Source: Rubrobacter indicoceani (GTDB lineage: Bacteria > Actinomycetota > Rubrobacteria > Rubrobacterales > Rubrobacteraceae). Taken from it: 64,000 bases of DNA. The DNA lies in the NCBI RefSeq assembly GCF_003568865.1, contig NZ_CP031115.1, positions 62,001-126,000 on the forward strand. Direction: 5' to 3'. The position numbers and the translations under genes are program-made. The notes under the pieces are model-generated. The model was not told the origin of the DNA and ran no database searches. It was given only the letters and a program-made list of their open reading frames with translations. Below, piece after piece: positions 38,759 to 56,210 of the stretch; positions within the stretch are counted from its first letter, which is position 1, and every line of letters begins with the position of its first letter.

Positions 38759-41032
38759 TCACCGGCTGAAGTTCACCTTCGCCAGAAGCGGCCTCACGGT
38801 TCGGCGTTCGAGGCAGCCGCGCCACACCCCGACCTGATACGCCGAAAGCTCCAGCCAGCACAGAAGGACAAAGGTGATGAGGCCGGTCTCCGGTTTCAGG
38901 CGACGGTGGTCAACGACCGGCGGCACGGACATAACGACCAGAAGCGAGGGCAGAAGCGGCGGGAAGATCGCTGAGGCCGCCAGCAGGGGAAGGCTGTAGT
39001 AGCGGCAGACGTTCGCCCCGAGATGATAGAGCCCCGCTCCGTGCTGACGGGTGATCGCCGCAACGAGGCTTCGGACGGGGAGCGTTACCCCGGCCCGCCG
39101 GAGTCTGCTCTGCTTTGTTGCGAACTCTACGGCGAGCATGACGAATATCATCAGCCCAAGGAGCAGCCCGAGCTGCCACGCAACGAAAAACGCCGGGACG
39201 AGCGCGAGGAGCAGCGTTCCGAGGGTCGGGATCACCAACCCTCTGCGGGACTTTTCGTGGCGGTGCTGGAGATCTGCTTCGGAGGATGCGTAGTCGGAGC
39301 GGCGTCTGAGAAGCTCCGGGAGGTGTGTGCGGTGGTGGTGTACGACCCCGGCCTCCGGTTCGTAGTAGGCGTCACCGCCGGACTCGAGCACGCGCCACAC
39401 GAAGTCCGCGTCCTCGCCGAGCGACATCTCCTCGTCGAAGCCGCCGAGCCTGAGGAAAGCTTCCCGATCAACGGCGAGGTTGCACGTCGGAAGGTACGCG
39501 ACCGGCTCCCCGAAGCCGACCCGGCCCGCCTGTTCACCCATATCGAGCGAGGAACGGACGGCCTCGAAGGCGGCCACCGGGCCGTCCGGCGCAGAAGAGA
39601 GGATGCGCCCGCCCACAACAACGGTCCCCGGCTCCGAAAGACGGGCGACAAGCGACCGGAGCCAACCGCTTTCGGCCTCGCAATCATTGTCCGTGAAAGC
39701 AAGGATCTCACCGCCCGCCTCCGCCGCCGCGAGGTTCCGGGCCGCCGACTGCCCGACGTTCTTCTCCAGGCGCAGAACCCGCACCGGGAGGTCGGAGAGC
39801 GACCACAAAAGCGGGTACTCGGAAGCGTCGTCTACCACCAGGACCTCGAGCAGATCCGCCGGATAATCCAGCCCGACAAGCGACTCGACGCAGGCGCGGG
39901 TCTGAAGCGGACGGTCCTTTGCGGGGACGATAGCCGTCACCGAAGGCAGCCGCGCCGGGATAATCTCCGCGTCCCGCCCGACGATGCGCCGGGCCGCCAG
40001 CCCGTCAAGAAACGCCGCTGCAGCGTCCACCGCGAGGCCGGACTCCTCTGAGAGTTCAGTCGCCGTCTTTCCGCCGTCGAGTCCCTTCAGCAGTTCGGCG
40101 GCCCGGGCGTTTACCTCGGTCGCCATGAGCGGTCGCTCCGAGAGCAGCGCCCAGCCTCTGTCTGTCCGACGCACCTCCATGCCGGGGCTGAGCGAGTAAC
40201 GCGGCGCGGGGCCTCGCCGCAGCGTCAGCGAGGCTTTGTCTAGGCCTTCCAGCCACAGCCCCGCTTCTTCTATGTGACGGAGCAGAGCTTTCGAGCCGTG
40301 CCAGAGGTGCATCGGGCGGGACCTGTCTTTCTCCGGCGGCAGGTGGACGAATAGCGTTCCGCCCGGCTTGAGGGCCGCCGCAAGAGATTTCAGGGCCGGG
40401 CCGGGGTCCGGCAGGTGCTCCAGCACGTCTACCGCCGAGACAAAGTCGAACTCGCCCTCCGGTAGACCTCTATATCCCGTCTCGAGGATCTTTACCGGAA
40501 TGTCGCGCCTCTCGAAGCGCGACCGGGCATAGTCGTTGAGGACGGGGTTGATGTCCGCGAGGGTAACGTCCAGGCCGTTGTCGGCCAGAAGCAGGCCGAG
40601 CGAACCGATGCCTCCCCCGAAGTCTAGCGTCTTCTGGGCCCGGTGTCCGAGCGCCGCATCCAGGGCCCCGACCGCCGAGAGCGCGCTCCCGTCCTCCGCG
40701 AGCGAGTGCCACCGCGTCAGATCGTAGAGGTACGCGTCGGTCTTTCGGTAGAACTCCCTTGTCTCACCGGCGCCCGTCGGCGCGGCTTCGACCCACTCTC
40801 TGGAGACGCGCTCCGCCCCTTCGGCGCACCTCTTCGCGACCTCCTCGTGCGTTGACGCTCCGAGGTACTCCGCAAGCTCGGCGACGAGGCTGGTTTCGAG
40901 GTCGGTGTGCGGTGGGAGAAGAAGGGCGGCCTCCCAGAGCTCGCGGGGGTCGCGCCCGGGGTCGCCGAACGATCCGGCGACCTTTCGAGACCGGGCGGAG
41001 AGCGCTATGGTTCTCCGGCTGCCGGGCTTCAT
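38759..41032 (-). CDS. mftF: methyltransferase-MftF fusion: mycofactocin glycosyltransferase
   Basis: 757 residues, well above the roughly 470 usual for MftF. Residues 90-275 are a class I SAM methyltransferase (LDFGGGIG 136-143, acidic D160, VDVLEHL 201-207). Residues 282-352 resemble the short PqqD-like leader of MftF. Residues 364-600 are a family 2 glycosyltransferase (AIVPAKD, VVDDAS 399-404, FTDNDC). Several membrane helices fill 610-740. MftF adds the beta-1,4-glucose chain to premycofactocin; the fused methyltransferase could methylate a sugar. ATGA overlap with mftE. Confidence 0.9.
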   Translation of the reverse strand: MKPGSRRTIALSARSRKVAGSFGDPGRDPRELWEAALLLPPHTDLETSLVAELAEYLGASTHEEVAKRCAEGAERVSREWVEAAPTGAGETREFYRKTDAYLYDLTRWHSLAEDGSALSAVGALDAALGHRAQKTLDFGGGIGSLGLLLADNGLDVTLADINPVLNDYARSRFERRDIPVKILETGYRGLPEGEFDFVSAVDVLEHLPDPGPALKSLAAALKPGGTLFVHLPPEKDRSRPMHLWHGSKALLRHIEEAGLWLEGLDKASLTLRRGPAPRYSLSPGMEVRRTDRGWALLSERPLMATEVNARAAELLKGLDGGKTATELSEESGLAVDAAAAFLDGLAARRIVGRDAEIIPARLPSVTAIVPAKDRPLQTRACVESLVGLDYPADLLEVLVVDDASEYPLLWSLSDLPVRVLRLEKNVGQSAARNLAAAEAGGEILAFTDNDCEAESGWLRSLVARLSEPGTVVVGGRILSSAPDGPVAAFEAVRSSLDMGEQAGRVGFGEPVAYLPTCNLAVDREAFLRLGGFDEEMSLGEDADFVWRVLESGGDAYYEPEAGVVHHHRTHLPELLRRRSDYASSEADLQHRHEKSRRGLVIPTLGTLLLALVPAFFVAWQLGLLLGLMIFVMLAVEFATKQSRLRRAGVTLPVRSLVAAITRQHGAGLYHLGANVCRYYSLPLLAASAIFPPLLPSLLVVMSVPPVVDHRRLKPETGLITFVLLCWLELSAYQVGVWRGCLERRTVRPLLAKVNFSR

Positions 41033-41787
41033 CTCGGCTCCGACCGGTGGGCCGGGAGCCGGGATGAGATCTCAGCCGCCGCGGCGTCGAGGTAGCGGGA
41101 GCCGCGTCCGGCTTCGGCGCGGGTCGGGTCCCCGAGGACGCCGCTCTTTGTAACCGAGATAAGACCCCCGGCGTAGAGCCGCTCCAGAACAAACTCCATA
41201 TCGCCGGTGAAGCCGGAGGAACCCTCACCGACAAGGTCCGGCCTCAAAAAGAGCATCTCCGAGGTCTCGCTCTCTCCGGCGTGAAGGCCGAGGTCCCTCT
41301 TTGAAAGACCGTCTTTCTCCCCGACCCGCGCCGTCGCCTCGCCGATGCTCGCGAGTTCTTCCGGGTACCAGACTTCGAGGTGCGAGAGCTCCCGCCCGAG
41401 ATACAGGGCCGCAAGCTCCAGAGCCCGGGCGTTGCCGCCGTGCGCCGAGAGCAGGACGATCCGCCTGATGCCCCAGCCGGACGCCCGGCGGGCGAGGGAG
41501 AGGATCACACCCGCCAGCGTTTCGTGGTCCAGCCCGAGAAGCCCGGCGAACCCCGAGTGCTCGTCGGAACAGCCGAACGGCAGCGTCGGGGCGACAAGAG
41601 AACCGGGAACCCGGGCGGCGAGCCGTTCGGCCAGCGCCTCCGCCCGGATGGTGTCGGTGGCGAGCGGAAGATGCGGGCCGTGTTGCTCCGTCGCCCCGAG
41701 CGGGAGTATCAGCGTTCTGCAGCCGCTCCTCACTGCCTCCCGAACCTCGGGCCACGTCATCTCCGAAAGAAAGTTCCGGCGCTTCAA
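41029..41787 (-). CDS. mftE: mycofactocin precursor peptide peptidase MftE
   Basis: Creatininase-fold metallopeptidase that cleaves the modified MftA C-terminus to release the Val-Tyr derived core. 252 residues: metal-site GATEQHGPHLPLATDT at 31-46, SDEHSGF, and LLSAHGGNARA. TTG 41787 follows GGGGAAAG; the ATG nine codons later is possible. Overlaps mftF by 4 bases and lies 90 bases after mftD. Confidence 0.92.
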   Translation of the reverse strand: MKRRNFLSEMTWPEVREAVRSGCRTLILPLGATEQHGPHLPLATDTIRAEALAERLAARVPGSLVAPTLPFGCSDEHSGFAGLLGLDHETLAGVILSLARRASGWGIRRIVLLSAHGGNARALELAALYLGRELSHLEVWYPEELASIGEATARVGEKDGLSKRDLGLHAGESETSEMLFLRPDLVGEGSSGFTGDMEFVLERLYAGGLISVTKSGVLGDPTRAEAGRGSRYLDAAAAEISSRLPAHRSEPR

Positions 41788-41877: not shown

Positions 41878-43074
41878 CTAGCCGGTCCTGACCGGAGAAG
41901 ACACCCCGAGGTTTCGCTTGAAGCCGTCCGGTATCACGAGGTCGTCCTCGCTCAACTCCGAAACGGACGAACGGCCCATGCCGCGCATCGTGGACTCCAT
42001 CCCCATCCGAAAAACGTCCAGCACGTTCTCCACCCCGGCCTGACCGTTCGCCGCCAGACCCCAGAGGTAGGCGCGTCCGATCATCACCGCCCGCGCCCCG
42101 AGCGCCACGGCCTTCACCACATCGCTGCCGCGCCGGATGCCGCCATCGAGAACCACCTCGATCCGGTCCCCGACCGCCTCGGCTATTGCGGGGAGGGCGC
42201 GTATGGAAGCCGGCGTTCCGTCCACGTTGTTGCCGCCGTGGTTGGAGACGGAGATGGCCGTCACCCCCGCGTCGGCGGCCCGTTCGGCGTCGTCGACCCG
42301 GATAACGCCCTTGAGCATCAACGGCCCGCCCCACTTTTCGCAGAGCCAGCTCACGTCGTCCCAGGTCGGGGGCGCAGACTGCATCCAGAGCCCGTACGCC
42401 CCGAAGAAGGTCATCGGCTCCTCGCCCGGTCCGCTCATGTTCGGGACGGTGAGGTCCGGCGGGCTTCCGGCCTTCGCGAAGTTTATGAGCCAGCGGGGTT
42501 TGGTAATGGCCTCCGGCGCGAACTTCAGCATCGTCTTGAGGTTCATGCTGTCCGGGATAGACGGGCTGCCCCAGTCGCGCCCGTAGGAGAACGTCCAGTC
42601 AAGGGTAAGGATTATTCCCGCCGCCCCCGCCGCTTTCGCCCGTTCCACGCGCTTCTGCATCTCCTCGCGGCCCCCGATCCAGTACATCTGGAAAAAGGTC
42701 TGCGGGTTTGCCTCCAGAACCTCCGCGAGCGGCTTGCTCCCGAAGGAACTCAGGCCCATCGCCGTACCCCGCGCCGCCGCCGCCCGCGCCACCGCGACCT
42801 CGCCGTCGGGGTGAACCGCCTGAACCCCGGTGGGGGATATGATCAGCGGCATCGAAATAGGCTGGCCCATCACGCTCGTTGAGAGGTCGCGCTCCGACGA
42901 CATCCCCACGACGTGCGGCGCAAAGCCAAGCTCCGTGAAGGCCCTGAGGTTGTCATCCAGGGTGATGCCCTTCTCCGAACCCGCCACCAGAGCCATGTAC
43001 ACCGACTTCGGGAGCCGCCGCTTTGCAACCTTCTGCATCTGCGCGACGGTTTCGAACCATTCGTTAGCTGCCAT
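41878..43074 (-). CDS. mftD: mycofactocin FMN dehydrogenase MftD
   Basis: FMN-dependent alpha-hydroxyacid-dehydrogenase family member that oxidises the MftE product AHDP to the alpha-keto amide premycofactocin. 398 residues, TIM barrel; SPTGVQAVHPDGE, LTLDWT, catalytic SNHGGNNVDG, then DGGIRRGSDVVKA and GRAYLWG as FMN phosphate motifs. GGAGG lies 11 bases before the ATG. Confidence 0.94.
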   Translation of the reverse strand: MAANEWFETVAQMQKVAKRRLPKSVYMALVAGSEKGITLDDNLRAFTELGFAPHVVGMSSERDLSTSVMGQPISMPLIISPTGVQAVHPDGEVAVARAAAARGTAMGLSSFGSKPLAEVLEANPQTFFQMYWIGGREEMQKRVERAKAAGAAGIILTLDWTFSYGRDWGSPSIPDSMNLKTMLKFAPEAITKPRWLINFAKAGSPPDLTVPNMSGPGEEPMTFFGAYGLWMQSAPPTWDDVSWLCEKWGGPLMLKGVIRVDDAERAADAGVTAISVSNHGGNNVDGTPASIRALPAIAEAVGDRIEVVLDGGIRRGSDVVKAVALGARAVMIGRAYLWGLAANGQAGVENVLDVFRMGMESTMRGMGRSSVSELSEDDLVIPDGFKRNLGVSSPVRTG

Positions 43075-43186: not shown

Positions 43187-44299
43187 TTACATCTGGCCCG
43201 CGAGCGGGAGGGCGGCCCGGTTTTTCTTGCGCGGTTTGGAGCTCAGGCCCACGCCCACGAAGTCGCCCTTGCCTCCGTTGACCGGTCCCTCGTCGTTGCC
43301 GAAGACGCAGTCCGGATCGGGCGAGTCAACCGAACGCCCGGTGAAGTGCTTGACGGCCATGCAGCCGCCGTGGCACACGTCGTAGGCGTTGCACGTCTGG
43401 CACGTCCCGCCGACCTGCCATTCCCTCAGGTGCTCGAACAACTCCGACTCGCGCCAGATGGCCTTGAAACCGCCCTCGTCGCGGACGTTGCCGCCCGAGA
43501 ACGCCGCGTCAAGAACAAACGGGCAGGCGTAAACCTCGCCGAGCGGATCGACGCAGCACACGATGCGCCCCGCGCCGCACATGTTCATCCCCTGAAGCTC
43601 CTCGCCGTAGGCCGAGAGGTGGAAAAACGAGTCGCCCGTAAGCACGTCCGGGTGGGTGTGCAGCCAGTCGTAGAGGGTGCGGTTCTGGGCCATCGTCGGG
43701 CGCATCCCGTCCCACACGTCAACGCCGCGCCCCGAAGGCCGGAGCCGCGTCAGGCGAAGCTCCCCGCCCTGCCCCGTCGCAAGGGCGTAGAGGTCGTCGA
43801 GCTGGTGGAAGTTCTGCTTTGTGAGCACGGAGTTGATCTTGAACTTGAACCCGCGCTCCGCAAGCCGCTCCATCGCCTTGCGCGCCCGTTTGTAGGAGCC
43901 CGTCCCGCGCACCGGGTCGTTTGTCTCGGCGGTCGCGCCGTCGAGCGATATCTGCACGTCAAGGTAGTCGCGGGAGCAGATCCAGTCAGCCGCCGCGTCG
44001 TCCAGAAGCGTACCGTTTGTCGAGAACTTCACCCCGATGCCCTTCTCAAGCGAGTAGTCCATAAGCTCAAAGAAGTCCGGGCGGGTCAGCGGCTCGCCGC
44101 CCCCGACGTTTATGTAGAAGACCTTCATCTCGGCCCACTGGTCTATGAGCGCCTTCGCCTCTTTGGTCGTGAGCTCGCCGGGACGGGCCTTGTCGGAGGC
44201 CGAAAGACAATGCTTGCAGCGCAGGTTGCACTCGTAGGTGACCTCCCACGTCAGACATATCGGTGCTTCGAGGCCCTTACGCAGCAGGTCGTAGCTCAC
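43187..44299 (-). CDS. mftC: mycofactocin radical SAM maturase MftC
   Basis: Radical SAM-SPASM enzyme that decarboxylates the MftA C-terminal Tyr and crosslinks it to Val. 370 residues. SAM cluster motif C24/C28/C31 (CNLRCKHC) and the SPASM cysteines in MNMCGAGR, CCVDPLGEVYACPF, CQTCNAYDVCHGGC and DPDCVFG. Overlaps mftB by 23 bases. Confidence 0.96.
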   Translation of the reverse strand: MSYDLLRKGLEAPICLTWEVTYECNLRCKHCLSASDKARPGELTTKEAKALIDQWAEMKVFYINVGGGEPLTRPDFFELMDYSLEKGIGVKFSTNGTLLDDAAADWICSRDYLDVQISLDGATAETNDPVRGTGSYKRARKAMERLAERGFKFKINSVLTKQNFHQLDDLYALATGQGGELRLTRLRPSGRGVDVWDGMRPTMAQNRTLYDWLHTHPDVLTGDSFFHLSAYGEELQGMNMCGAGRIVCCVDPLGEVYACPFVLDAAFSGGNVRDEGGFKAIWRESELFEHLREWQVGGTCQTCNAYDVCHGGCMAVKHFTGRSVDSPDPDCVFGNDEGPVNGGKGDFVGVGLSSKPRKKNRAALPLAGQM

Positions 44300-44567
44300 G
44301 GATGATCCCTTTCGTCTCCAGTTGCCCCAGAGCGTTCTCGATAACCTTGCATTGGGCTTCGCTTATCCCTTTTTCGGCGGCGAACGCGCCCATTACCTCG
44401 CCAAGGGTTCTCTTGCCATCCAGCGACTCGATAAACTCCACCAGCGGCCGCGAGTGCAAAAAGAGCAACGCCCGATTGTCGTAGCGATAAACCAGACCCC
44501 CGAACTTCTCCCACCGAACCGCAACCTGCGACGGAACTTCGTAGGTCTTTTCCGCCTGTACCGGCAA
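44277..44567 (-). CDS. mftB: mycofactocin peptide chaperone MftB
   Basis: PqqD-like RiPP recognition element that binds the MftA leader and delivers it to MftC. 96 residues with the family pattern VRWEKFGGLVYRYDNRALLF and LDGKRTLGEVM. TTG start with AGAGGT upstream. First gene of the mftB-C-D-E-F block. Confidence 0.93.
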   Translation of the reverse strand: MPVQAEKTYEVPSQVAVRWEKFGGLVYRYDNRALLFLHSRPLVEFIESLDGKRTLGEVMGAFAAEKGISEAQCKVIENALGQLETKGIIRELRPAA

Positions 44568-44804: not shown

Positions 44805-45641
44805 CTATTTCGCCATCAGGCCGGCGTCGACGGTGAGGGTGGAACCGGTTACGTAGCGGGCTTCGTCGGAGGCGAGCCAGAGCAGGGCGTTCGAGATGTC
44901 TTCGGGCTGCATCCAGGGTGTGTTCAAGAGGTTCAGGCTCCGGAAAGCCGGGGTGACCTCTTCAAGCTTCGCATCCGGGTCGCCGCCGCTGAAAAGGGTG
45001 TACATGGCCTGGTTTTTGATGATCGGGGTATCCACCGAGCTCGGGTGGATGGTGTTTACCCTCACGCCGTGCGGCGCGAGTTCTATGGCGAGGGACCGCA
45101 TCAGGCCGACTACGCCGTGTTTGGCGGCGCAGTAGTGGGCCTGGTTGCCAAGCCCCTTCAGCCCGGCTATGGAGGAGGTGAGGACGATGGCGCCGCTTTT
45201 TCTTTCGATCATGTGTGGCACGATGGCCCGGCAGCTTTTCCAGACCCCGGTGAGGTTCACCGCGAGCATCTCGTCCCACTCTTCCTCGGTGAGCTCGTGG
45301 GCCGCGCCGAAGCTCTCTATCCCGGCGTTGGCGAGTAGCACGTCCACCCGACCGAACTCCGAGACCGCCCGCTCTACCACGCCGCGCATCTGCGCCGAGC
45401 TTCGCACGTCGGCCTTCAGCGCGAGGCATTTCCCCCCGACGGACTCGACCAGCCGGGCGGTCTCAAAGAGGTCCTCGCCGGTAGCCAGCGGGTACGGCAC
45501 GGTCGGGGAGCCATGCTGCTCTGCGACGTCGCAGGCGATTATCCCGGCGGCCCCTTCCCGGGCAAAGACGAGGGCGTGGGATCTCCCCTGACCGCGGGCG
45601 CCGCCCGTTATGAGGACGACCTTGCCATCCATCCTGCCCAT
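44805..45641 (-). CDS. mycofactocin-coupled SDR family oxidoreductase
   Basis: 278 residues. Rossmann TGGARGQGRSHA, NAG, catalytic S/Y/K as TSSIAG and YCAAKHG. The segment CDVAEQHGSPTVPYPLATGEDLFETARLVESVGGK is the insertion typical of mycofactocin-associated SDRs, which hold NAD non-exchangeably and need mycofactocin as external electron acceptor. Placed between mftA and mftB. Alcohol substrate unknown. Confidence 0.88.
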   Translation of the reverse strand: MGRMDGKVVLITGGARGQGRSHALVFAREGAAGIIACDVAEQHGSPTVPYPLATGEDLFETARLVESVGGKCLALKADVRSSAQMRGVVERAVSEFGRVDVLLANAGIESFGAAHELTEEEWDEMLAVNLTGVWKSCRAIVPHMIERKSGAIVLTSSIAGLKGLGNQAHYCAAKHGVVGLMRSLAIELAPHGVRVNTIHPSSVDTPIIKNQAMYTLFSGGDPDAKLEEVTPAFRSLNLLNTPWMQPEDISNALLWLASDEARYVTGSTLTVDAGLMAK

Positions 45642-45737: not shown

Positions 45738-45905
45738 CTAGTAGACCCCGCACATTCCGTCTATGTTGATCTCTTCTATCATGATCTCCTCGGCCATCTC
45801 CGGCGCGTCGGAGGCCCACCCTTCCTGCGAGGCATCCTCCTTTTCAGCGTAGGCCGTGCCTGCCGGACGTTCTTCCAACGTCACGCCGCCCTTCGGGTCT
45901 CTCAT
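45738..45905 (-). CDS. mftA: mycofactocin precursor peptide MftA
   Basis: 55-residue precursor. It ends EEINIDGMCGVY, the conserved C-terminus from which MftC/E/D make the Val-Tyr derived redox cofactor. ATG 45905 is preceded by AAAGGAG; the frame extends to 45962 but that part is unlikely to be translated. The acidic leader (EMAEEIMIEEI) is what MftB would bind. Separated from mftB by the SDR gene. Confidence 0.95.
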   Translation of the reverse strand: MRDPKGGVTLEERPAGTAYAEKEDASQEGWASDAPEMAEEIMIEEINIDGMCGVY

Positions 45906-45970: not shown

Positions 45971-46915
45971 TTAACCAGACGTGGCATTGTAGTCAATGCT
46001 CGAGACCCGCTCCAGAACGACCCACCCGCCGAGGTGCACCATAGATTCACACCGCCAGCCAGCCCGGCCAACAAGGGCCGGAAGGCTCTCCAGGTCGAAC
46101 GTCCTGACGTGTCCGTAGGCCGGGTCTGCGACTTTCTCCATCGGAACAGCGACGACTACCCTTCGCCGGGCAACCCGGCACGCCTCGGAGACCGCCCTTC
46201 CGGCGAACGGGTCCGGAAGGTGCTCCAGCAGGTGAAGGGCCGTAACGGTGTCGAAGGAGCGATCCGGAAACGGAAGATCGCAGGCGTCGCCCGCGATAAA
46301 CTCCACGGGCTCCGATTTCTCGTGGCTTCCAAAGTTCCCGGCGAGGTGTAGGGTTCGGGCCGAGAGGTCGAGGGCCGTTACCTGCAGTTGCGGTTTGTGG
46401 TGTTTCACGAGCAGCGGAAAGAACCCGAAACACGTCCCGACATCGAGCAGCGAATCCCCGGCGAGCAGCGACGCCGCGTGGGCGTAGATCCCGGCAAACG
46501 AAGCGATCGGCCCCGGACCGTCCGCCTCGCCGTCGGTTTCCTCGATTCGCGCCAGAGTGTTTCTGTAGAAGAGCCGCCACGCCTCGCCCGCCTGAACCGC
46601 CGAAGAAAGCACGACCCCCGCGAAACACCGCTCGAAAGCGTTCGGGATGGAGAGGCGGCCCGGGCGGACGATCTCCCCGGCCACAAACTCCGCGAGGTCG
46701 TTGTCTATCTGATGGGGCCCGAGACGATGCAGCACCGTAGGCTTTTCCCCGCGCACGAAGATGCTGAAGTGCGGCGTTTTGCAGACCGGGGCGGCTTCTT
46801 CCGCGAGCGCAGCCGCAAGGCCGGGGTTGGCGTGCTCCGAGGCGACGGTAAGCCCGTCGTCGCGGTGAAGCCACCTTGCCTCACTCAGCGCATCGGGCCT
46901 GACCTCCGGCATCAT
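45971..46915 (-). CDS. class I SAM methyltransferase, MftM-like
   Basis: 314 residues. Residues about 150-290 are a methyltransferase fold: LLDVGTCFGFFPLLV, DLSARTLHLAG, DACDLPFPDRSFDTVTALHLLEHLPDP. The N-terminal 140 residues (hot-dog-like, FSIFVRGEKPTVLHRLGPHQID) are unlike common methyltransferases. MftM O-methylates the mycofactocin oligoglucose chain, and this gene sits right before mftA, so that role is likely. Assignment rests on context and general pattern. Confidence 0.72.
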   Translation of the reverse strand: MMPEVRPDALSEARWLHRDDGLTVASEHANPGLAAALAEEAAPVCKTPHFSIFVRGEKPTVLHRLGPHQIDNDLAEFVAGEIVRPGRLSIPNAFERCFAGVVLSSAVQAGEAWRLFYRNTLARIEETDGEADGPGPIASFAGIYAHAASLLAGDSLLDVGTCFGFFPLLVKHHKPQLQVTALDLSARTLHLAGNFGSHEKSEPVEFIAGDACDLPFPDRSFDTVTALHLLEHLPDPFAGRAVSEACRVARRRVVVAVPMEKVADPAYGHVRTFDLESLPALVGRAGWRCESMVHLGGWVVLERVSSIDYNATSG

Positions 46916-46922
46916 CGGGTCG

Positions 46923-48428
46923 CTACCTTGTCGTGAGCGCGCCGGTCACCATCTCGTCTACCACCTCATCGAACTGGTCGAGGCTCCGGACCACCTCTAC
47001 GCGGTCACAGAGCTCGGCGTAGGTCGGCATGTCGCTGCCGCCCAGGTCCCAGTGGGGACGTTTCTCCGGGGTAAACCAGATAAGCTGCCGCGCCCGGCGA
47101 CCTATCTCTTCCAGCACCCAGGCGTTCGCCGGATGGCCGTTGCCGCGCCCGTCGCCGAGGATCAGCACCGTCGTGCGCTGGTTGATGGCCGAGAGATGAC
47201 GCTGGTGGAAGTTCTCCAGAGCAAAGCCGTAATTGGAGTTCGCGTCCACGTCGAGGATCTCACCACCGAAGATCATCCCCAGAACCTCTTCCAGCCCTGA
47301 ATGCTCGAAGTATTCCGTCACTTCTACAAGGTCCGAAACAAACGCGAACGTCCTGACGTTGGAGAAGAAGCTCTGCAGGTTGTGCACGAGGTGCAGCGCG
47401 AACCGCGCCGTGTTACGCACCGAGAGCGAGACATCGGCGAGCACGACGAGGCGCGGCCGGTCTTCCTTGCGGCTGGCAAAGAACGGCCTGAACGGGATGC
47501 CCTGGTACTTCATGTTGTGGCGCATCGTGCGGGCGATGTTGATGCGGCCCCGGTATGCGGCGTCGCGGCGGTTGGAGAGTACGCCGTTCATCTTGCGGCT
47601 CAGCCGGCGCAGGAGCTCTTCCATCTGCTGCTGTTCCTCGTCGGTGAAGCCGATGCGGTACATGGGGGAGACGTCTTCGGCGCGCGGCCTCGCGTCGCCC
47701 TTCTCGGCCATGAGCTTTTCAAGGTATCTCTGAAGAAGCTCCGGCAGGCGTTCTATCGCGCCGTCTATCTGGGCGCGGAGTTTTTCTGAGACCTCTTCGT
47801 CAACGTCGAGCTGGTCGACAAGCTCGCGGAGCCGGTCGAGCGCGCCGAGGTCGAGTTCCATATCCATCGTCGCCGCCGGGTCGCCGGGGGCGAGGCTGCC
47901 TAAAGCGCCGGGGTTCGAGAGACGGCTGACGTTGATCTGGGTCGTGAGGTCGTTCATCGCCTCGTCAACGGCCTCCTGCGCCGCGTTCAGGACAAGCTGC
48001 TGGCTCATCGCGCTGAACGCAACGTCGGCCTCGTCCTGGTGCATCTGCTTTGACGCCTTGAGCTTTTCCTCCTCAAACAGCTCCATAGCTTCAAGAAGTG
48101 CTTCCTGACCGCTGCCGTTTTTGTCGAAGTTCGGGTCTTCGATGGAGATGTCCGTCTCGACGCCCTCGACCCGCGCCCGGCCACCGTCGCCGTCCTCGGC
48201 CTCCGAAAGAAAATCTTCGATGCAGAAGAACCGCTCGAACTCCTCCTCGAAAGCTTCGATATCGCTCGTGTTCTTTATAAGCGTCGCCTGAAGCGTTATA
48301 CGGAATTCCTCCCGCTCCGCGATGCTGACCTGCCCGAGACCGCGCAGGGCGTCCATGATCTCCGCCGGACAGATCCTTATGCCCCGCTGCCTCAAAACCC
48401 ACGCAAAGCGGTTTATAACCTTATCCAA
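46923..48428 (-). CDS. VWA-domain protein, CoxE/MoxR-associated (second copy)
   Basis: 501 residues, paralogue of the VWA protein at 48652. N-terminal helical domain (NRFAWVLRQRGIRICPAEIMDALR), an acidic region (about 70-115) without histidines, then a C-terminal VWA domain with MIDAS motif DVSLS near 330. In CoxE, NorD and CbbO such proteins work with a MoxR ATPase to mature metalloenzymes. 7 bases before the MftM-like gene, 223 after its paralogue. Confidence 0.85.
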   Translation of the reverse strand: MDKVINRFAWVLRQRGIRICPAEIMDALRGLGQVSIAEREEFRITLQATLIKNTSDIEAFEEEFERFFCIEDFLSEAEDGDGGRARVEGVETDISIEDPNFDKNGSGQEALLEAMELFEEEKLKASKQMHQDEADVAFSAMSQQLVLNAAQEAVDEAMNDLTTQINVSRLSNPGALGSLAPGDPAATMDMELDLGALDRLRELVDQLDVDEEVSEKLRAQIDGAIERLPELLQRYLEKLMAEKGDARPRAEDVSPMYRIGFTDEEQQQMEELLRRLSRKMNGVLSNRRDAAYRGRINIARTMRHNMKYQGIPFRPFFASRKEDRPRLVVLADVSLSVRNTARFALHLVHNLQSFFSNVRTFAFVSDLVEVTEYFEHSGLEEVLGMIFGGEILDVDANSNYGFALENFHQRHLSAINQRTTVLILGDGRGNGHPANAWVLEEIGRRARQLIWFTPEKRPHWDLGGSDMPTYAELCDRVEVVRSLDQFDEVVDEMVTGALTTR

Positions 48429-48582
48429 CGCAAGCCCCCGACTCTATCCCGGTCTTTACTTCAACACTGATCCCGGCTGCCATGAAACCCCTGTCCGACG
48501 CCTGTAAACCTGTCTATCTGTTCAGTCACGCAACCGCATCTTTGTACCACATCTTGCCTGACCCCCGCACCCGACCGGGAGA

Positions 48583-48625
48583 GGCCCGCGAAGGTCGGCG
48601 AGACCCTCGCCGACCTTCGCGGGCC
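48583..48625. repeat. perfect 20-bp hairpin between two VWA genes
   Basis: Left arm 48583-48602 starts GGCCCGCGAAGG, loop ACC at 48603-48605, right arm 48606-48625 ends CCTTCGCGGGCC; all 20 pairs match. It lies 27 bases downstream of the first VWA gene's stop, in the 223-base gap. No T run follows, so it may be an attenuator, mRNA stabiliser or small mobile palindrome rather than a simple terminator. Confidence 0.8.
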
Positions 48626-48651
48626 GGGTTGCCCGGTTGTCTCGCCGGGCA

Positions 48652-50175
48652 TTACCTGGAGACCAGCGCCCCGGTTACTATCTCGTCCACCACGTTGTCG
48701 AGCTGGTCGAGGCTCCGGACCACCTCCACGCGGTCGCAGAGCTCGGCGTAGGTCGGCATGTCGCCGCCGCCCTGCTTCCAGTAGCGGCGCTGTTCGGGGG
48801 TAAACCAGATAAGCTGCCGCGAACGCCGGGCCATCTCCTCCACAACCCAGGGGTTCGGGGGGTTGCCGTTGCCGCGCCCGTCGCCGAGGATCAGCACCGT
48901 CGTGCGCTGGTTGATCGAGGTGAGGTAGTTCTGATAGAAGGTCTCGAGGGCGAGACCGTAGTTTGAGTTGGCGTCCACGTCGAGGATCTCACCACCGAAG
49001 ATCATCCCCAGAACCTCTTCCAGCCCTGAATGCTCGAAGTATTCCGTCACTTCTACAAGGTCCGAAACAAACGCGAACGTCCTGACGTTGGAGAACAGGC
49101 TCTGCAGGTTGTGCACGAGGTGCAGCGCGAACCGCGCCGTGTTACGCACCGAGAGCGAGACATCGGCGAGCACGACGAGGCGCGGCTTGTCCTCCTTGCG
49201 GCTCGTCAGAACGGGCTTGAAGGGCATGCCCTGGTACTTCATGTTCTGCCGCATCGTGCGGGCGATGTTGATGCGGCCCCGGTGCGTTGTGCTGCGGCGG
49301 CTCGACAGCGCGCCGTTGATCTTCCGTCCGAGCCTTCTGAGGAGCTCTTCCATCTGCTGGCGTTCCTGCTCCGTGAAGCTTGTCCGGTAGGCCGGGGCGA
49401 CCTCGTCGTCGTGGATGTGCATCTCGCGCCCCTGCGCCATCAGTTTCTCGAGGTACTTCCGCAGTAGTTCCGGGAGGCGGTCTATCATGCCGTCCACCTG
49501 CTGCCGGAGGCTCTCGACGAGTTCGTCGTCTATGTCGAGCTCGTCTATGGCCTGCTGAAGTTGCTGCACCGCCCCGACCGACATATCCACGTCGAGGGTC
49601 GCCGCCGGGTCGCCGGTGGCGAGTTCGCCGGGCATGCCGGGGTTTTTGAGGCTCCGGACGTTGACCTGCGTGGAGAGCTTGTCGAGAACCTGCGTCAGGG
49701 CGTCCTGGTTGGCGTTCAAGATAAGCTGCTGGCTCAGGGCCGAGAGGTCGGTCTTGCTCGCCTCCTTGTGGATGGAGTACGAGACGGCGAGGTCTTTCGC
49801 GTCGAAGAGGTCGGCGATATCGGCGGGTTTGTCGTGAGAGTGGCTCGGGTCGTCGGTTTCGGACGGCTCTTCGGACATCGTGATGCGGGCGACCTCCGAG
49901 GATCGGTCGTCGCCGTGATCGTGTCGGTGGTCGTGCGAGTGGTCGTGGTCGTCGAAGAGGTCCTGCATCCTGAAGAACTTCTCGAAGACCTCTTCGAAGG
50001 CGGGCAGGTCGCGCTCGTTTTTTATAAGCGTTCCGGCGAGCGCGGCCTTGACCGCCGCCCTCTGTGAGATGTCGAGCGAACCCAGAGCACGCAGGGCGTC
50101 TATCGTCTCCGCCGGGGAGATGCGAACGTCCCGCTGCCTGAGAAACCAGACAAAGCGGTTTATGACCCTGTCCAT
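48652..50175 (-). CDS. VWA-domain protein with His-rich insert
   Basis: 507 residues. Same layout as the downstream copy: helical N-terminal domain (NRFVWFLRQRDVRISPAETIDALR), then a segment at 75-90 with six alternating histidines (H77, 79, 81, 83, 85, 87) and SHSHD at 111-115, a helical middle, and a VWA domain with MIDAS D338-V-S-L-S342. Four bases after the MoxR gene. The His run could bind divalent metal; the partner is probably the MoxR ATPase and the neighbouring methanol dehydrogenase. Confidence 0.87.
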   Translation of the reverse strand: MDRVINRFVWFLRQRDVRISPAETIDALRALGSLDISQRAAVKAALAGTLIKNERDLPAFEEVFEKFFRMQDLFDDHDHSHDHRHDHGDDRSSEVARITMSEEPSETDDPSHSHDKPADIADLFDAKDLAVSYSIHKEASKTDLSALSQQLILNANQDALTQVLDKLSTQVNVRSLKNPGMPGELATGDPAATLDVDMSVGAVQQLQQAIDELDIDDELVESLRQQVDGMIDRLPELLRKYLEKLMAQGREMHIHDDEVAPAYRTSFTEQERQQMEELLRRLGRKINGALSSRRSTTHRGRINIARTMRQNMKYQGMPFKPVLTSRKEDKPRLVVLADVSLSVRNTARFALHLVHNLQSLFSNVRTFAFVSDLVEVTEYFEHSGLEEVLGMIFGGEILDVDANSNYGLALETFYQNYLTSINQRTTVLILGDGRGNGNPPNPWVVEEMARRSRQLIWFTPEQRRYWKQGGGDMPTYAELCDRVEVVRSLDQLDNVVDEIVTGALVSR

Positions 50176-50179
50176 AGCC

Positions 50180-51268
50180 CTAGCTCAAACCTTTTACGGA
50201 CCCGTAGTAGTTTTTGTTGTGGCGGTTGTTGTACTCGTCGTTGTGCGAGTGGGAATGACCGCCGTGCGAGTGGTCGTGGCCGTGGTCCCCGTGGTCGTGC
50301 GTATGACCCTTCTCGCCCATGATGCGCGGCAACGCCTCCACCGCCCGCTCCACGTCGCGGTCGTACTTCAAGAGCAGCATCAGCGTCTCCTCGACAAGCT
50401 TCTTGTCCAGCGACTCGGCGTTCAGGACCGCGAGCGCCTTCGCCCAGTCAAGGGCCTCCGAGATGCTCGGCGCTTTGCGAAGGTCGAGTTCGCGCAGGGA
50501 GCGGATCATCTCCACTATCTGCCGGCTCAGGGCCTCCGAGATGTCCGGCACCTTGAGGCGCAGGATCTCGAGCTCGCGCTCCGCCGTCGGGTAGCCGAGC
50601 GAGAGGTGCAGACACCGCCGCTTGAGAGCCGGGCTCAGGTCGCGGGTGTTGTTTGAGGTGATGATCACATACGGTGTCGTAACCGCCTTGAACGTCCCGA
50701 GCTCCGGAATAGTGACCTGAAGCTCCGCCAGCACTTCAAGGAGCAAAGCCTCCAGCTGCTCGTCGGCCCGGTCTATCTCGTCTATAAGCAAAACGGTCGG
50801 CTCTTTAGAGCGGATGGCCTCGAAAATCGGCCGCTCCGAAAGGAACTGCTCGGAGAAGAACAGGCTCTCGTAGCTTTTGAGTTCCGGCAGCGCGTCGCCG
50901 GGTTCCTTGGCTTCCTCAAGGACGTTGTTTGTCTTCTCCTTGAGAAGCTGGGTGTAGAGAAGCTGCTTGCCGTAATCCCACTCGTAGAGGGCCTGGCTTG
51001 CGTCGAGCCCCTCGTAGCACTGGAGCCGGACCAGCTTCCGCCCGGTCGTGAGGGAGAGCGCCTTTGCAAGCTCCGTCTTGCCGACCCCCGCCGGGCCTTC
51101 TATCAGGATGGGCTTCTCGAGGCGCGTTATAAGAAAGACCATCGTGGCGAGTTTGTGATCCACGATGTAGCCGTCCTGTTCCCGGAAACGCTCGACGACC
51201 TGTTCGATGCTCTCGAAGGTCTCCTGCTTTTCCGGGCCTTTTCCTTTCGGCTCGTCAAGAGTCGTCAC
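50180..51268 (-). CDS. MoxR-type AAA ATPase with His-rich C-terminal tail
   Basis: 362 residues. Walker A GPAGVGKT at 58-65, Walker B LLIDEIDRADEQ, sensor ITSNNTRDLSPALKRRC: a MoxR/CoxD/NorQ-class ATPase. The last 45 residues carry ten histidines between 322 and 342 (HTHDHGDHGHDHSH, GGHSHSH) and an Asn/Tyr tail, absent from the CoxD homologue at 61876. First gene of the MoxR-VWA-VWA-mft string; its promoter would lie in 51269-51386. Confidence 0.9.
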   Translation of the reverse strand: MTTLDEPKGKGPEKQETFESIEQVVERFREQDGYIVDHKLATMVFLITRLEKPILIEGPAGVGKTELAKALSLTTGRKLVRLQCYEGLDASQALYEWDYGKQLLYTQLLKEKTNNVLEEAKEPGDALPELKSYESLFFSEQFLSERPIFEAIRSKEPTVLLIDEIDRADEQLEALLLEVLAELQVTIPELGTFKAVTTPYVIITSNNTRDLSPALKRRCLHLSLGYPTAERELEILRLKVPDISEALSRQIVEMIRSLRELDLRKAPSISEALDWAKALAVLNAESLDKKLVEETLMLLLKYDRDVERAVEALPRIMGEKGHTHDHGDHGHDHSHGGHSHSHNDEYNNRHNKNYYGSVKGLS

Positions 51269-51386
51269 GAATCGTCCCCTTTTCTGTTTTTCCCCGTAAT
51301 GCTTTTCCCGTTATTGCATGCATATTCTACACCAGCCTATCCGGCCCACCGCTGTGAACCCTCTACCTCTGAGACATGCCCCGGAC
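51269..51386 (-). promoter_or_regulatory. promoter region of the MoxR operon
   Basis: Between the MDO terminator and the MoxR start. Contains TGCATGCA at 51315-51322 within an AT-richer patch (TTATTGCATGCATATTC). This 8-base palindrome resembles sites near modA and abrB. Confidence 0.35.
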
Positions 51387-51418
51387 AAAAAAGAGAGGCC
51401 GCGCGGAGGCGACCTCTC
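51387..51418 (-). terminator. rho-independent terminator of the methanol dehydrogenase gene
   Basis: Read on the minus strand: GAGAGGTCGC pairs with GCGGCCTCTC (one G-T pair, short loop), followed at once by TTTTTT (complement of 51387-51392). It begins 28 bases after the gene's stop codon, separating its transcript from the MoxR operon. Confidence 0.8.
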
Positions 51419-51445
51419 CCGGTTTCGGTCGGTGTTTCGGTACGC

Positions 51446-52708
51446 CTAGAGCGTGCCGTGAATGCAGTGCTCGACAACCGGGCGCACGCTCTCGAAGGTA
51501 CACTCGCGCGGGTTGCCCGGCGTGCAGGCGTCCTGGAGAACGTGGTTCGTGATGCGGTCTATGTCCGCAGCGTCGCCCTTGATCTCCGTCCCCGCGTCCT
51601 TGTATACGCCCTCGCCCATGATGTTCTTCGGGTACGTGTCCTTGTTGACCGAAGCAAAGTTCTCCGGAATGCCCACGTCCTTGAGCAGCCTTATCGCGGC
51701 ATCGAGCGCGGCCTCGGCCATCTGGACATCCGTCTTACCGTTTCTCTGAACGCCCATCGCAACCGCGATGTCCGCGAACCGCTTGTAGCAGGTCGGCATG
51801 TTGAACTCCCACACCCTCGGCAGCGCGATGGCGTTGTTGAGGCCGTGATGGCTGTCGTAGAACGCGCTGACGGCGTGCGAGATGGAGTGGATGATCCCGA
51901 GCCCACCCGAGTTGAACGCCTGAGCGGCGATGTACTGCGCGTACATCATCCCGCTGCGTCCTTCGAGGTTGCGCGGCTCATAAGTCGCGAGACGCAGGTT
52001 CTCGGAGGTCAGCTTGATAACGTGCAGCGCGGGCCCGAGGCTCGGCTGGAAGTCAAGCCTCGAAACGTACGGCTCGCTTGCGTGCGCCAGGACGTCGAAG
52101 CCGCACTGCGCCGTGAACCGCTCCGGACAGTCGTAGTAGAGAACCGGGTCGAGCATCGCGAGGCTCGTAACGCTCGCGTCATCGAAGCCGACGTACTTGT
52201 GCGGCTCGTCGCCCGTCGTATCCGTTATAACGTACGCCCACGAAGTCTCAGAACCCGTCCCGGCGGTCGTGCTGACGGCGATGTGCGGCGGGTTCACCGG
52301 GTTCTCGGACTTGTTGAAGCCCTCGAACTCGTTGATGTTGCGTCCGTCGTGCGCTACGACTATACGGGCGGCCTTGCAGGCATCATGGCTGCTTCCGCCG
52401 CCGATGGAGATAAAGCTGTCGCACTTCTCCTCGGTGTACATCTTGTGGGCGTCCATGACATTGTAGTCTTTCGGGTTGGACTCGACCTTGTCGTAGACAA
52501 CGACCTCGATGCCCTGGTACTCGACCTTGCCCTTGATGTCCTCGATGATGTCCGTCCCCTTGAGGCCGGAGGTCATGATGAGGGTTTTCTTGAAACCGAG
52601 CTTCTTCGCCTCGACCCCGATCAACTCATAGGTCCCCGGACCCATGAGCCCCCTCGGTATCGGGTGAAACTCCTTGATCGGAAAATCAGACAGCCTGCTT
52701 ACGTCCAT
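51446..52708 (-). CDS. mdo: NDMA-dependent methanol dehydrogenase (iron-type ADH, mycofactocin-dependent)
   Basis: 420 residues, Fe-ADH family, near the 423 typical of actinobacterial MDO. ATG 52708 has AGGAG 8 bases upstream. GGGSSHD at 103-109 binds NAD; metal ligands by alignment are D205, H209, H274 and H288 (FDVLAHAS, IIHSISHAVSAFYDSHHG). MDO-type decamers hold NADH tightly and pass electrons to NDMA in vitro and probably to mycofactocin in vivo. It oxidises methanol or other short alcohols. Adjacent to the MoxR/VWA and mft genes. Confidence 0.88.
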   Translation of the reverse strand: MDVSRLSDFPIKEFHPIPRGLMGPGTYELIGVEAKKLGFKKTLIMTSGLKGTDIIEDIKGKVEYQGIEVVVYDKVESNPKDYNVMDAHKMYTEEKCDSFISIGGGSSHDACKAARIVVAHDGRNINEFEGFNKSENPVNPPHIAVSTTAGTGSETSWAYVITDTTGDEPHKYVGFDDASVTSLAMLDPVLYYDCPERFTAQCGFDVLAHASEPYVSRLDFQPSLGPALHVIKLTSENLRLATYEPRNLEGRSGMMYAQYIAAQAFNSGGLGIIHSISHAVSAFYDSHHGLNNAIALPRVWEFNMPTCYKRFADIAVAMGVQRNGKTDVQMAEAALDAAIRLLKDVGIPENFASVNKDTYPKNIMGEGVYKDAGTEIKGDAADIDRITNHVLQDACTPGNPRECTFESVRPVVEHCIHGTL

Positions 52709-53114
52709 GCACGAACTCCTCTCGTCTTTCCCTGACCCCTCCACAAAAAGAGAAGCCAACCCGCAGATATCACCTAAGCCCTTCCCCCAAGCCCTATAGC
52801 GTACTCAGATATACTCCTTTCGACGCTCCGGATTCAGAGCCACAGACCGGAGAAGAGAAGTTGACGGAAGCCCCAATGAAATCAATCTTCCGCAAAGCGC
52901 AGACCCGGGACTCAGAGGCGCAACGACGACGCGCGAACCCGACGAGACCTCTACGACTCAATTCTTCGGCGACCCTTTCCCTTTTTCGCCTCGCCCCACG
53001 CGAAGCAAGGAACACTCTAGACCAACCGTTCAGGATTTCCAATATCTCTGAGCCAATCAACACTAGATCCCAGATGCTAACCGGTGGCAGCTGAAGTACG
53101 GGTTGTAATCCGGC
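52709..53114. promoter_or_regulatory. long intergenic region upstream of methanol dehydrogenase
   Basis: 406 bases with visibly lower GC than the flanking genes, between MDO and the AbrB-family gene, both transcribed leftwards. It must hold the MDO promoter. Small frames exist on both strands, such as 52794-53063 (minus), but none has family similarity or a convincing ribosome site. No RNA gene recognised. Confidence 0.5.
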
Positions 53115-54480: not shown

Positions 54481-55311
54481 TTGAGTACGAAAGCCAGCTT
54501 TCTGCCGGTTGTCTGTGTGCTGGTTGCGGCTGTCGTGGCGGCTGGTTGCGGTAGTTCTGAGGGGGCCGACACGGCCGAGGGAGCGTCCGGTTCGGGGGGC
54601 GACTCCCTGACGGTATTCGCTGCGGCGTCCCTGACCGATGCGTTCGAGGAACTCGGGGAAGAGTTCACGGATCAGACCGGGGCCGAGGTTACGTTCAGCT
54701 TCGCCGGCAGCTCGACGCTCGCAACCCAGATAGAGCAGGGTGCGCCAGCGGACGTTTTCGCCTCTGCCGACGAGGCTCAGATGGAGAACGTGGAAGAGGC
54801 CGGGCTCGTCTCCGGCCAGCCGGAGGTCTTCACCACGAACCGCGAGGTAATCGTCGTCCCAGCGGACAACCCCGGCGACGTCACAGACTTCGCGGACCTG
54901 GCGAACCCGGGCCTGCGTCTCGTGCTGGCGCAAGAGGATGTACCCGCTGCCGAGTACGCGGAGGAGATCCTAGACAAGGCCGCAGACAACCCGGAGTACG
55001 GCGAGGACTTCAAGGAAGACGTAACAAGCAATATCGGTTCGCGCGAGGAGGACGTCAGGGTCGCAGTCAACCGGGTGGTCGTGGGGGACGCGGACGGAAC
55101 CTTTGGCTACGCCAGCGACGTAACGCCCGGCATCCGCGACGAGGTGTTGATAGTCGAGATACCCGAAGACCTGAACATCACGGCCGAGTACCCGATAGCC
55201 GCGCTCTCCGACTCGCAGAACACCGACCTTTCACAGCGGTGGATAGACTTCGTGTCCGGCGAGGAAGGACGGTCCGTCATGGAGAAGTGGGGGTTTCAGA
55301 GTGTCGAGTGA
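54481..55311 (+). CDS. modA: molybdate ABC transporter substrate-binding protein
   Basis: 276 residues. Signal peptide with lipobox VAAGC (C23). The mature part starts SLTVFAAASLTDAFEELG, the standard ModA motif, followed by FSFAGSSTLATQIEQGAPADVFASAD and YPIAALSDSQN. Binds molybdate (or tungstate) outside the membrane. TTG start. Followed by modB. Confidence 0.94.
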   Translation: MSTKASFLPVVCVLVAAVVAAGCGSSEGADTAEGASGSGGDSLTVFAAASLTDAFEELGEEFTDQTGAEVTFSFAGSSTLATQIEQGAPADVFASADEAQMENVEEAGLVSGQPEVFTTNREVIVVPADNPGDVTDFADLANPGLRLVLAQEDVPAAEYAEEILDKAADNPEYGEDFKEDVTSNIGSREEDVRVAVNRVVVGDADGTFGYASDVTPGIRDEVLIVEIPEDLNITAEYPIAALSDSQNTDLSQRWIDFVSGEEGRSVMEKWGFQSVE

Positions 55312-55370
55312 GACGGAGCAGGCTGGAAGCCCGCGCGTCTTGATCCGATAGAACGGAGAGCATAACGCCG

Positions 55371-56210
55371 GTGGCTCAGGGTGGCAAAAACCGCAGCGCA
55401 GCGAGAAGGTTCGTTGGAGACGGAACCTACAGCCTGGTAGCCATCAGCTGTCTGGGTCTTCTGGCCGGGTTTATAAGCCTTCCGATAGTGAGCTTGCTTA
55501 TCTGGACCGTAGACACCTCGGCCTGGCGCGCAATGCTGTCGCCGGTCGCGCTTCAGGCGCTATCCCTGAGCATCCGCACGACCAGCGTTACCCTTGTCAT
55601 AACCATTCTCATCGGCACTCCGGCCGCCTACGCGCTGTCGCGTTTTGAGTTTCCGGGCAAGAAGCTTGTGGACACGCTGGTGGATATACCCGCCGTGCTG
55701 CCTCCGTCTGCGGCGGGCATAGCCTTACTGCTGGCCTTCGGAAGACTCGGGCTCGTCGGTGAGCCTTTGAACCTCGCGTTCGGGATCACCATAACCTTCA
55801 CCACCGTAGCAGTGATCCTGGCGGAGTTGTTCGTAGCGATGCACTTCTACGTGCGTTATACGACCGTCGGGTTCGATAACGTGGACCGGAGCATAGAAGA
55901 AGCCGCCATGGTAGACGGCGCGGGAAGAGGCAACACGTTTCTGAGGATTACCGTCCCCCTGGCCTTTCCCTCCATAGTAGCCGGAGCGGTGATGGCCTGG
56001 GCCAGGGCTTTAGGTGAATTCGGGGCGACGATCATATTCGCCGGGAACGTTCGAGGCGTTACGCAAACCATGCCGCTTGCCATCTACGCTGAGTTCCAGA
56101 GCGACCTCGACGCAGCCGTGGCCCTTTCGCTTATGGTTCTTGTCTTCGCCTTCGCGGTCATCCTGACCGTCCGGCTCCTGACGAGGCGTAGCGTCGCGTA
56201 CCGGGATTGA
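55371..56210 (+). CDS. modB: molybdate ABC transporter permease
   Basis: 279 residues, about six membrane helices. The EAA loop is EEAAMVDGAGRGNTFLRITVPLAFPSIVAG, and ARALGEFGATIIFAGN is typical of ModB. GTG start. No ModC ATPase gene follows; the next gene is convergent. ATP hydrolysis must come from an ATPase encoded elsewhere. Confidence 0.92.
   Translation: MAQGGKNRSAARRFVGDGTYSLVAISCLGLLAGFISLPIVSLLIWTVDTSAWRAMLSPVALQALSLSIRTTSVTLVITILIGTPAAYALSRFEFPGKKLVDTLVDIPAVLPPSAAGIALLLAFGRLGLVGEPLNLAFGITITFTTVAVILAELFVAMHFYVRYTTVGFDNVDRSIEEAAMVDGAGRGNTFLRITVPLAFPSIVAGAVMAWARALGEFGATIIFAGNVRGVTQTMPLAIYAEFQSDLDAAVALSLMVLVFAFAVILTVRLLTRRSVAYRD

Follow-up and report, generated by a model that had tools for sequence, protein, structure and literature searches.

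A MoxR/VWA protein pair travels with NDMA-type methanol dehydrogenase and may load it with nickel or cobalt

We analysed a 64,000-nucleotide stretch of Rubrobacter indicoceani DNA (NCBI RefSeq assembly GCF_003568865.1, contig NZ_CP031115.1, positions 62,001 to 126,000 of the forward strand; hereafter the window, whose own coordinates are used throughout) in which the gene for a mycofactocin-associated methanol/alcohol dehydrogenase (MDO) is followed by genes for a MoxR AAA+ ATPase and two VWA proteins, here called MadB, MadC1 and MadC2, with MadBC standing for the pair. Mycofactocin-linked alcohol dehydrogenases support the use of methanol, ethanol and ethylene glycol in actinomycetes, and their metal and maturation are unsettled. 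An earlier note on this DNA had read MDO, the ATPase, both VWA proteins, an MftM-like methyltransferase and mftA as one series on the same strand; all six lie on the minus strand where it put them, but the gene set reaches about 10 kb further, to position 35475. The features closest to the question of what the pair does are the following:

53075 to 53089, strand not assigned: second copy of a putative regulatory box, ∼370 bp upstream of MDO, reading TGCCACCGGTTAGCA in the direction of the gene
51446 to 52708, minus strand: MDO, NDMA-type methanol/alcohol dehydrogenase of the iron-type alcohol dehydrogenase (Fe-ADH) superfamily (TIGR04266, 703.7 bits, cut-off 625; PF00465/PF25137)
51391 to 51420, minus strand: terminator-like hairpin and T-run between MDO and MadB (12-pair stem, top of the scan; -24.5 kcal/mol, z -1.8)
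50180 to 51268, minus strand: MadB-like MoxR AAA+ ATPase with His-rich C-terminal tail (NF047784, 377 bits, cut-off 475)
48652 to 50175, minus strand: MadC1, MadC-like VWA protein with His-rich linker (PF05762, 123.6 bits; NF047783, 260 bits, cut-off 600)
46923 to 48428, minus strand: MadC2, VWA tandem duplicate without the His-rich stretch (PF05762, 118.8 bits; NF047783, 248 bits, cut-off 600)
38092 to 38106, strand not assigned: palindrome TGCTAAGTATTAGCA directly upstream of FUR, with the spacing of a Nur box
37646 to 38086, minus strand: Fur-family regulator (FUR), putatively nickel-responsive (PF01475, 76.9 bits)
36865 to 37626, minus strand: NicO-family Ni/Co transporter with His-rich loop (PF03824, 43 bits, cut-off 27.7)
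35475 to 35753, minus strand: SCO4226-like protein, homologue of a nickel-binding protein (PF14026, 96 bits, cut-off 28.5)

Because a strong hairpin resembling a terminator stands between MDO and MadB, the order of the two genes does not by itself establish one uniform operon. With this hairpin in place MDO may be produced at higher levels than MadBC, which would fit a catalytic role of the pair.

The MadBC pair travels with the dehydrogenase. Across 80 named MDO loci, a sample biased by including only the closest MDO relatives (at least 73% identity), MadB adjoins MDO in 78, MadC in 77 and MftM in 71, a recurrence that places the gene order described earlier well beyond chance. The exceptions are a locus that stops 141 bases past MDO (L082), one too short for MadC (L020), and L068, to which we return below. 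Where a Pseudonocardia locus carries two MDO paralogs (L035), each has its own MadB and MadC, and MDOs merely 50% identical, found in Rubrobacteraceae, also have MadB and MadC, MadB being present wherever the flank suffices. In a phylum sample of 296 genomes, 15 of which have MDO at the threshold used, MadB matches of at least 356 bits are confined to genomes with an MDO locus, and the top score in an MDO-less genome is 353.5 bits. Three genomes (G141, G173 and G216) fall under the MDO threshold, yet MDO is present in their loci, either fragmented or at the edge of a contig; in G152 and G290, MDO lies at contig ends. The co-occurrence on which the earlier note had staked its proposal therefore holds with almost no exceptions.

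The ATPase of the window is a relative, rather than a curated member, of the NCBIfam MadB equivalog (NF047784; 377 bits where 475 are required), and by the same kind of rule the two VWA proteins fall outside the MadC equivalog (NF047783; 260 and 248 bits where 600 are required). The MoxR AAA+ motifs GPAGVGKT, DEID and ALKRRC are invariant or nearly so across 13 MadB homologues, Walker A and B being invariant, and in a fold search with a predicted model the best PDB matches of MadB were NorQ and CbbQ, with NorQ the closest. The VWA proteins exceed the gathering score of PF05762, the CoxE-like family of MoxR partners, and the MIDAS motif DxSxS is found in 82 of 82 MDO-linked MadC proteins. A sequence search of MadC1 against the PDB gave no match; the fold search alone did so, the predicted MadC model matching VWA domains, NorD among them, with a poorly predicted linker. 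In a MadB tree built by a quick method, CoxD/CoxE form a separate clade and two groups unlinked to MDO fall among the MDO-linked ones with modest support; the nearest relative of the window MadB comes from a genome of the same genus and the nearest named one from Rubrobacter marinus.

Both VWA proteins of the earlier account are present, but the second is a local duplication. Relatives have one MadC, to which MadC1 is orthologous (85% identity with the protein of the Rubrobacteraceae genome G053 and 81% with that of R. marinus), and MadC2 is ∼62% identical at the protein level to MadC1 and to the G053 protein. A counterpart of MadC2 was absent from the relatives examined, including G053 and R. 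marinus with one MadC each, which rules out a functional need for a second VWA protein. Since the two copies share a tract of ∼215 nt across the MIDAS region with hardly any DNA differences (identical runs of 125 and 88 nt), against 62% protein identity overall, their sequences suggest gene conversion. A near-perfect 20-bp inverted repeat without a T-run (48575 to 48655; -60.5 kcal/mol, z -7.4) lies between MadC1 and MadC2.

The pair also persists where mycofactocin genes do not. Twelve genomes whose MDO is of the 50% type have neither mftC nor mftD (G065, G119, G141, G152, G173, G184, G206, G216, G237, G259, G270 and G280), and MadBC is present in 11 of these 12 Rubrobacteraceae genomes, the contig of the remaining one (G152) ending on the MadB side. 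Because of this persistence, MadBC acts on the dehydrogenase, or on a need of the dehydrogenase other than mycofactocin; mycofactocin as the object of MadBC is ruled out, and its exchange by the pair, proposed earlier beside metal insertion, has lost its support. Two genomes (G011 and G087) have mftC and mftD, but neither MDO nor MadB was matched in them at the thresholds used; between its mft cluster and NicO, G087 has a fragment of 40 residues resembling MDO (65% identity; L156:13220-13339), which would fit a loss of MDO. In G119, a protein with a PQQ-type dehydrogenase domain and PQQ-biosynthesis-like genes are found near MDO-MadB (L147:313-5243).

These genomes bear on the possibility that MadBC is an activase that remodels MDO to release or exchange tightly held NAD(P)(H) or a dead-end mycofactocin complex, as CbbQ/CbbO does for Rubisco. 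MoxR/VWA pairs do include such activases (CbbQO, PMC4660213), the MadB fold matches CbbQ too, and MDO is regarded as a nicotinoprotein associated with mycofactocin (PMC6529628). The mycofactocin version is contradicted by the retention of the module without mftC and mftD, and the NAD version leaves the His-rich tails and Ni/Co genes described next unexplained; we consider an activase improbable, and place it second among three alternatives.

The proteins themselves carry signs of metal handling. The window MDO belongs to the NDMA-dependent methanol dehydrogenases of TIGR04266, conserved Asp and His residues included: Asp204, His208, His273 and His287 (numbering of alignment A4) are invariant in 20 MDOs, and we take these positions to be the metal ligands, following what is established for the Fe-ADH family. 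The window MadB ends in GHTHDHGDHGHDHSHGGHSHSH plus a short tail. When a His-rich tail is defined as at least four His in 20 residues, and L141 and L142 are counted as MDO-linked, such a tail is present in 83 of 87 MDO-linked MadB proteins versus 0 of 13 unlinked ones; the four linked proteins without it all belong to the Mno clade, two of them from one genome. MDO-linked MadC proteins average 7.2 His in the linker and unlinked homologues 1.1; 54 of 82 linked proteins have a motif resembling GHxHGKP, and in NorD the linker is the part stretched during metal insertion (PMC13036017). Judged from its composition, the MadB tail suggests that the machine itself holds metal.

The gene neighbourhood points toward nickel or cobalt. 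In Rubrobacteraceae loci without mycofactocin genes the order runs MDO-MadB-MadC-Nudix-(FUR)-NicO-(SCO4226-like) (L141, L142, L144, L145, L149, L151 and L152), and in the window and G053 the mycofactocin cluster sits between MadC and Nudix, the cluster of R. marinus being inverted. In relatives that lack mft genes the Nudix gene is conserved beside MadC, a homologue adjoining it in L140-L142, L144, L145, L149-L152, L164 and L167, that of L140 belonging to PF00293. A Ni/Co transporter is found at MDO-MadBC in 14 of the 15 Rubrobacteraceae loci with enough downstream sequence (G000, G053, G065, G119, G141, G173, G184, G216, G227, G237, G259, G270, G280 and G290), as NicO in most and with CbiM/CbiQ occupying the slot in G053, G141 and G259. 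The single testable locus without one is G206, G152 being too short to count; NicO of G119 and G290 was counted from separate contigs on which it lies near MadC, and the G290 gene has two stops. NicO of the window is the sole PF03824 match in its genome. A Fur-family regulator and an SCO4226-like protein often accompany the transporter in these loci, and SCO4226 is a nickel-binding, nickel-induced protein (PMC4186839). Outside Rubrobacteraceae, NiCoT or CbiM adjoins MDO in 8 of 80 loci from four genera: NiCoT stands beside MDO in four Amycolatopsis loci and follows MadC immediately in the Williamsia and Rhodococcoides loci, and two Gordonia loci have CbiM/CbiQ a short way upstream of MDO. Three or more kinds of transporter thus recur beside MDO in several lineages, to be read against a background rate in actinomycetes that is a rough estimate only. 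As a control, ZnuA-type Zn/Mn importers are present in 11 of the same 14 Rubrobacteraceae genomes and never adjoin MDO, which speaks against zinc import as the MDO-linked metal system.

Control of these genes may be shared. The pattern TGCNA-N5-TNGCA occurs three times in the window (just upstream of FUR, ∼370 bp upstream of MDO, and elsewhere at 21124) against 0.35 expected, with 0 of 100 shuffles reaching three, a count that is partly fitted because the pattern was first spotted in the FUR upstream region. Its recurrence in relatives is better evidence: a matching box lies upstream of FUR in seven genomes, the window included, and G053 also has one ∼440 bp upstream of MDO; none was found in the R. 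marinus locus (L153). The box resembles, without equalling, the Streptomyces Nur box tTGCaa-N5-ttGCAA (PMC3919588). The Fur-family protein has the Fur domain PF01475, and its best NCBIfam matches are PerR/Fur models, below their cut-offs. For riboswitch control of the nickel genes (NiCo, cobalamin), no Rfam match reached the gathering score in the window and 12 related loci. A degenerate second Fur-family gene lies on the plus strand at 35893 to 36279, 44% identical to an intact copy in L150 (4443-4868).

By analogy with NorQ/NorD, we propose that MadBC is a maturation machine that inserts nickel or cobalt into MDO, a reading to which we give a probability of roughly 0.58. NorQD inserts iron (PMC13036017) and depends on ATP hydrolysis and on an intact MIDAS motif (PMC9976466); the motifs concerned are present here, MIDAS in MadC and the ATPase Walker motifs in MadB. 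Co and Ni stimulate an iron-type methanol dehydrogenase of Desulfofundulus, and Fe slows it (PMC12093947), which makes Ni/Co chemistry in MDO plausible. Insertion of metal into MDO had been suggested before by analogy with other MoxR/VWA pairs, and that suggestion has gained independent support from the His-rich tails, the Ni/Co transporters, the homologue of a nickel-binding protein, and the Fur-family regulator with its box; the nickel genes, the His-rich tails and the recognition of the second VWA protein as a recent duplicate go beyond the earlier note.

In the mechanism we envisage, MadB would be a hexameric MoxR ATPase and MadC its VWA adaptor, which would dock on apo-MDO, probably via the MIDAS-bearing VWA domain and the His-rich linker. 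Hydrolysis of ATP by MadB would twist MadC and open the dehydrogenase, allowing Ni(II) or Co(II) stored on the MadB tail and MadC linker to be placed into the Asp/His/His/His site. The metal would be supplied by NicO, or elsewhere by CbiM-type or NiCoT transporters, and buffered by the SCO4226-like protein, with the Fur-family protein controlling both metal supply and MDO through the shared box. More tentatively, and with somewhat less than even odds, the window-type MDO would be a nickel (or cobalt) enzyme, MadBC a nickel insertase with its own His-rich metal store, and MDO and metal supply would stand under one Fur-family (Nur-like) regulator, the His-less MadBC of the Mno clade serving another metal.

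Several observations weigh against insertion of nickel or cobalt. In L068, the second MDO of Pseudonocardia acidicola, the 10-kb flanks contain neither MadB nor MadC; the other copy in that species (L050) has the full gene set. The 50%-type MDOs that matched TIGR04266 score 496-537 bits, under its cut-off of 625. Because Rubrobacteraceae loci share ancestry, 14 of 15 does not represent 14 independent events. With its weak score, the Rubrobacter NicO could be an exporter; it is retained in three genomes without MDO (G011, G041 and G087), adjoining CoxL in G011 and G041 as if the intervening MDO genes had been lost, and the genome of the window has urease and NiFe hydrogenase, both unlinked to the MDO cluster. 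The last two points favour an account in which MadBC is a general chaperone for folding or assembly of the MDO oligomer and the Ni/Co genes supply metal for urease, NiFe hydrogenase or cobalamin, and RavA/ViaA offers a precedent, a pair that modulates a respiratory client with no metal insertion shown (PMC10585395). G053, which is 100% complete and has neither urease nor NiFe hydrogenase, nonetheless has CbiM/CbiQ, FUR and the SCO4226-like protein in its MDO cluster. That three or more transporter types occur next to MDO in distinct lineages, and that His-rich tails are restricted to MDO-linked MadB, also speaks against a general chaperone, which we judge unlikely, though it ranks first among the alternatives.

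The Mno clade supplies the remaining objections to nickel or cobalt insertion. Its MadBC lacks His-rich tails (L003, L146 and the first copy of L035), and no nickel gene was found near the MDO of these same loci. Purified actinomycete MNO reportedly contains Zn and Mg. The M. smegmatis mno operon responds to Zur/SmtB, MSMEG_6237 and 6240-6242 being altered in zur and smtB mutants (PMC7174638). Because of this response and the missing tails, the Mno clade may use another metal. The reported zinc and the Zur/SmtB response would also fit insertion of zinc (or another metal) by MadBC in general, with the Ni/Co transporters as lineage accidents. No ZnuA-type importer stands beside MDO in the 14 genomes, whereas Ni/Co importers do, and the SCO4226-like protein and Nur-like box point to nickel; zinc insertion as a general account is the least probable of the three alternatives, and it may hold solely for the His-less Mno clade.

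The pairing of MDO with MoxR/VWA proteins is not new, since NCBIfam already names the same pair as MadB and MadC and an ATPase counterpart exists in the M. smegmatis mno operon. Mno-clade proteins beside MDO exceed the NCBIfam cut-offs (MadB, 547.8 and 500 bits; MadC, 767 and 700 bits), whereas the window proteins fall under them and differ in the His-rich tail and linker and the duplicated VWA gene. The M. smegmatis operon (MSMEG_6242-6238) has mno and the AAA ATPase MSMEG_6241, as in the window (PMC11303327, PMC7174638), a hypothetical protein (6240) where MadC would stand, and a SAM methyltransferase (6237) nearby; two-component MnoSR control and a 1,3-propanediol dehydrogenase are found there only, whereas the Fur-family gene, Ni/Co transporter and mft cluster belong to the window. 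NorQ/NorD resembles MadBC as a MoxR ATPase and VWA partner of the same fold class with an adjoining client gene (PMC13036017, PMC9976466), and differs in that it handles iron, the MadBC client being a soluble Fe-ADH-type dehydrogenase and MadB having a His-rich tail. CoxD/CoxE belong to the same superfamilies as MadB/MadC, and one such pair lies in the same window (61876 to 63967) beside a CoxL-type Mo enzyme. CbbQ/CbbO is likewise a MoxR/VWA pair, with a CbbQ fold near that of MadB, but it is an inhibitor-releasing Rubisco activase rather than a metal insertase.

We found no earlier description in the open literature of the His-rich MadBC variant, its Ni/Co neighbourhood or its independence from mycofactocin, and the nickel-gene link appears new. 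Neither the origin of the Mad names nor any connection of nickel with mycofactocin was found there; for nickel, this absence is weak evidence because the results were swamped by chemistry papers. If the proposal is correct, the MoxR/VWA family would gain a new client and a new metal, the function of MadBC would become a matter of MDO metal content, and a Ni/Co-loading machine would help explain why such dehydrogenases may be hard to produce in foreign hosts.

The other genes of the minus-strand series include a mycofactocin cluster mftA-F, in which mftC, mftD and mftF exceed their family cut-offs, mftE falls just under, and mftA and mftB are assigned by sequence and position:

45971 to 46915, minus strand: MftM, mycofactocin oligosaccharide methyltransferase (NF041255, 248.9 bits, cut-off 200)
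45738 to 45905, minus strand: mftA, mycofactocin precursor, 55 aa, C-terminal end EEINIDGMCGVY (IDGMCGVY; sequence and translation, no family scan)
44805 to 45641, minus strand: mycofactocin-coupled SDR oxidoreductase (TIGR03971, 372 bits, cut-off 300)
44277 to 44567, minus strand: mftB-like open reading frame with TTG start (translation and place between mftA and mftC, no family scan)
43187 to 44299, minus strand: MftC radical SAM maturase (TIGR03962, 602 bits, cut-off 265)
41878 to 43074, minus strand: MftD (TIGR03966, 683 bits, cut-off 471)
41029 to 41787, minus strand: MftE (TIGR03964, 169.9 bits, slightly under the cut-off of 172)
38759 to 41032, minus strand: MftF glycosyltransferase with N-terminal methyltransferase-like region (TIGR03965, 443 bits over residues 282-753; methyltransferase models at ∼100-230)
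38135 to 38674, minus strand: Nudix hydrolase (Nudix models)
36360 to 36791, minus strand: TrmO/TsaA-like protein (PF01980, 87.9 bits; TIGR00104, 90.5 bits, cut-off 93.25)

The MftM call made earlier from sequence is borne out by its family score (249 bits). The methyltransferase-like region of MftF spans ∼280 residues, and near full-length matches to the protein occur in R. marinus, G053, G011 and G087.

On the other side of MDO, ModA/ModB molybdate transporter genes (54481 to 56210) lie between MDO and a CoxL cluster. The latter (58587 to 63967) encodes a CoxL/CoxM-type Mo hydroxylase with the active-site motif AYRGAGR (form II type) and its own CoxD/CoxE pair, and is divergent from MDO. CoxL also adjoins MDO in L018, L143, L144 and L145, and the Mo hydroxylase may oxidise the aldehyde product of MDO.

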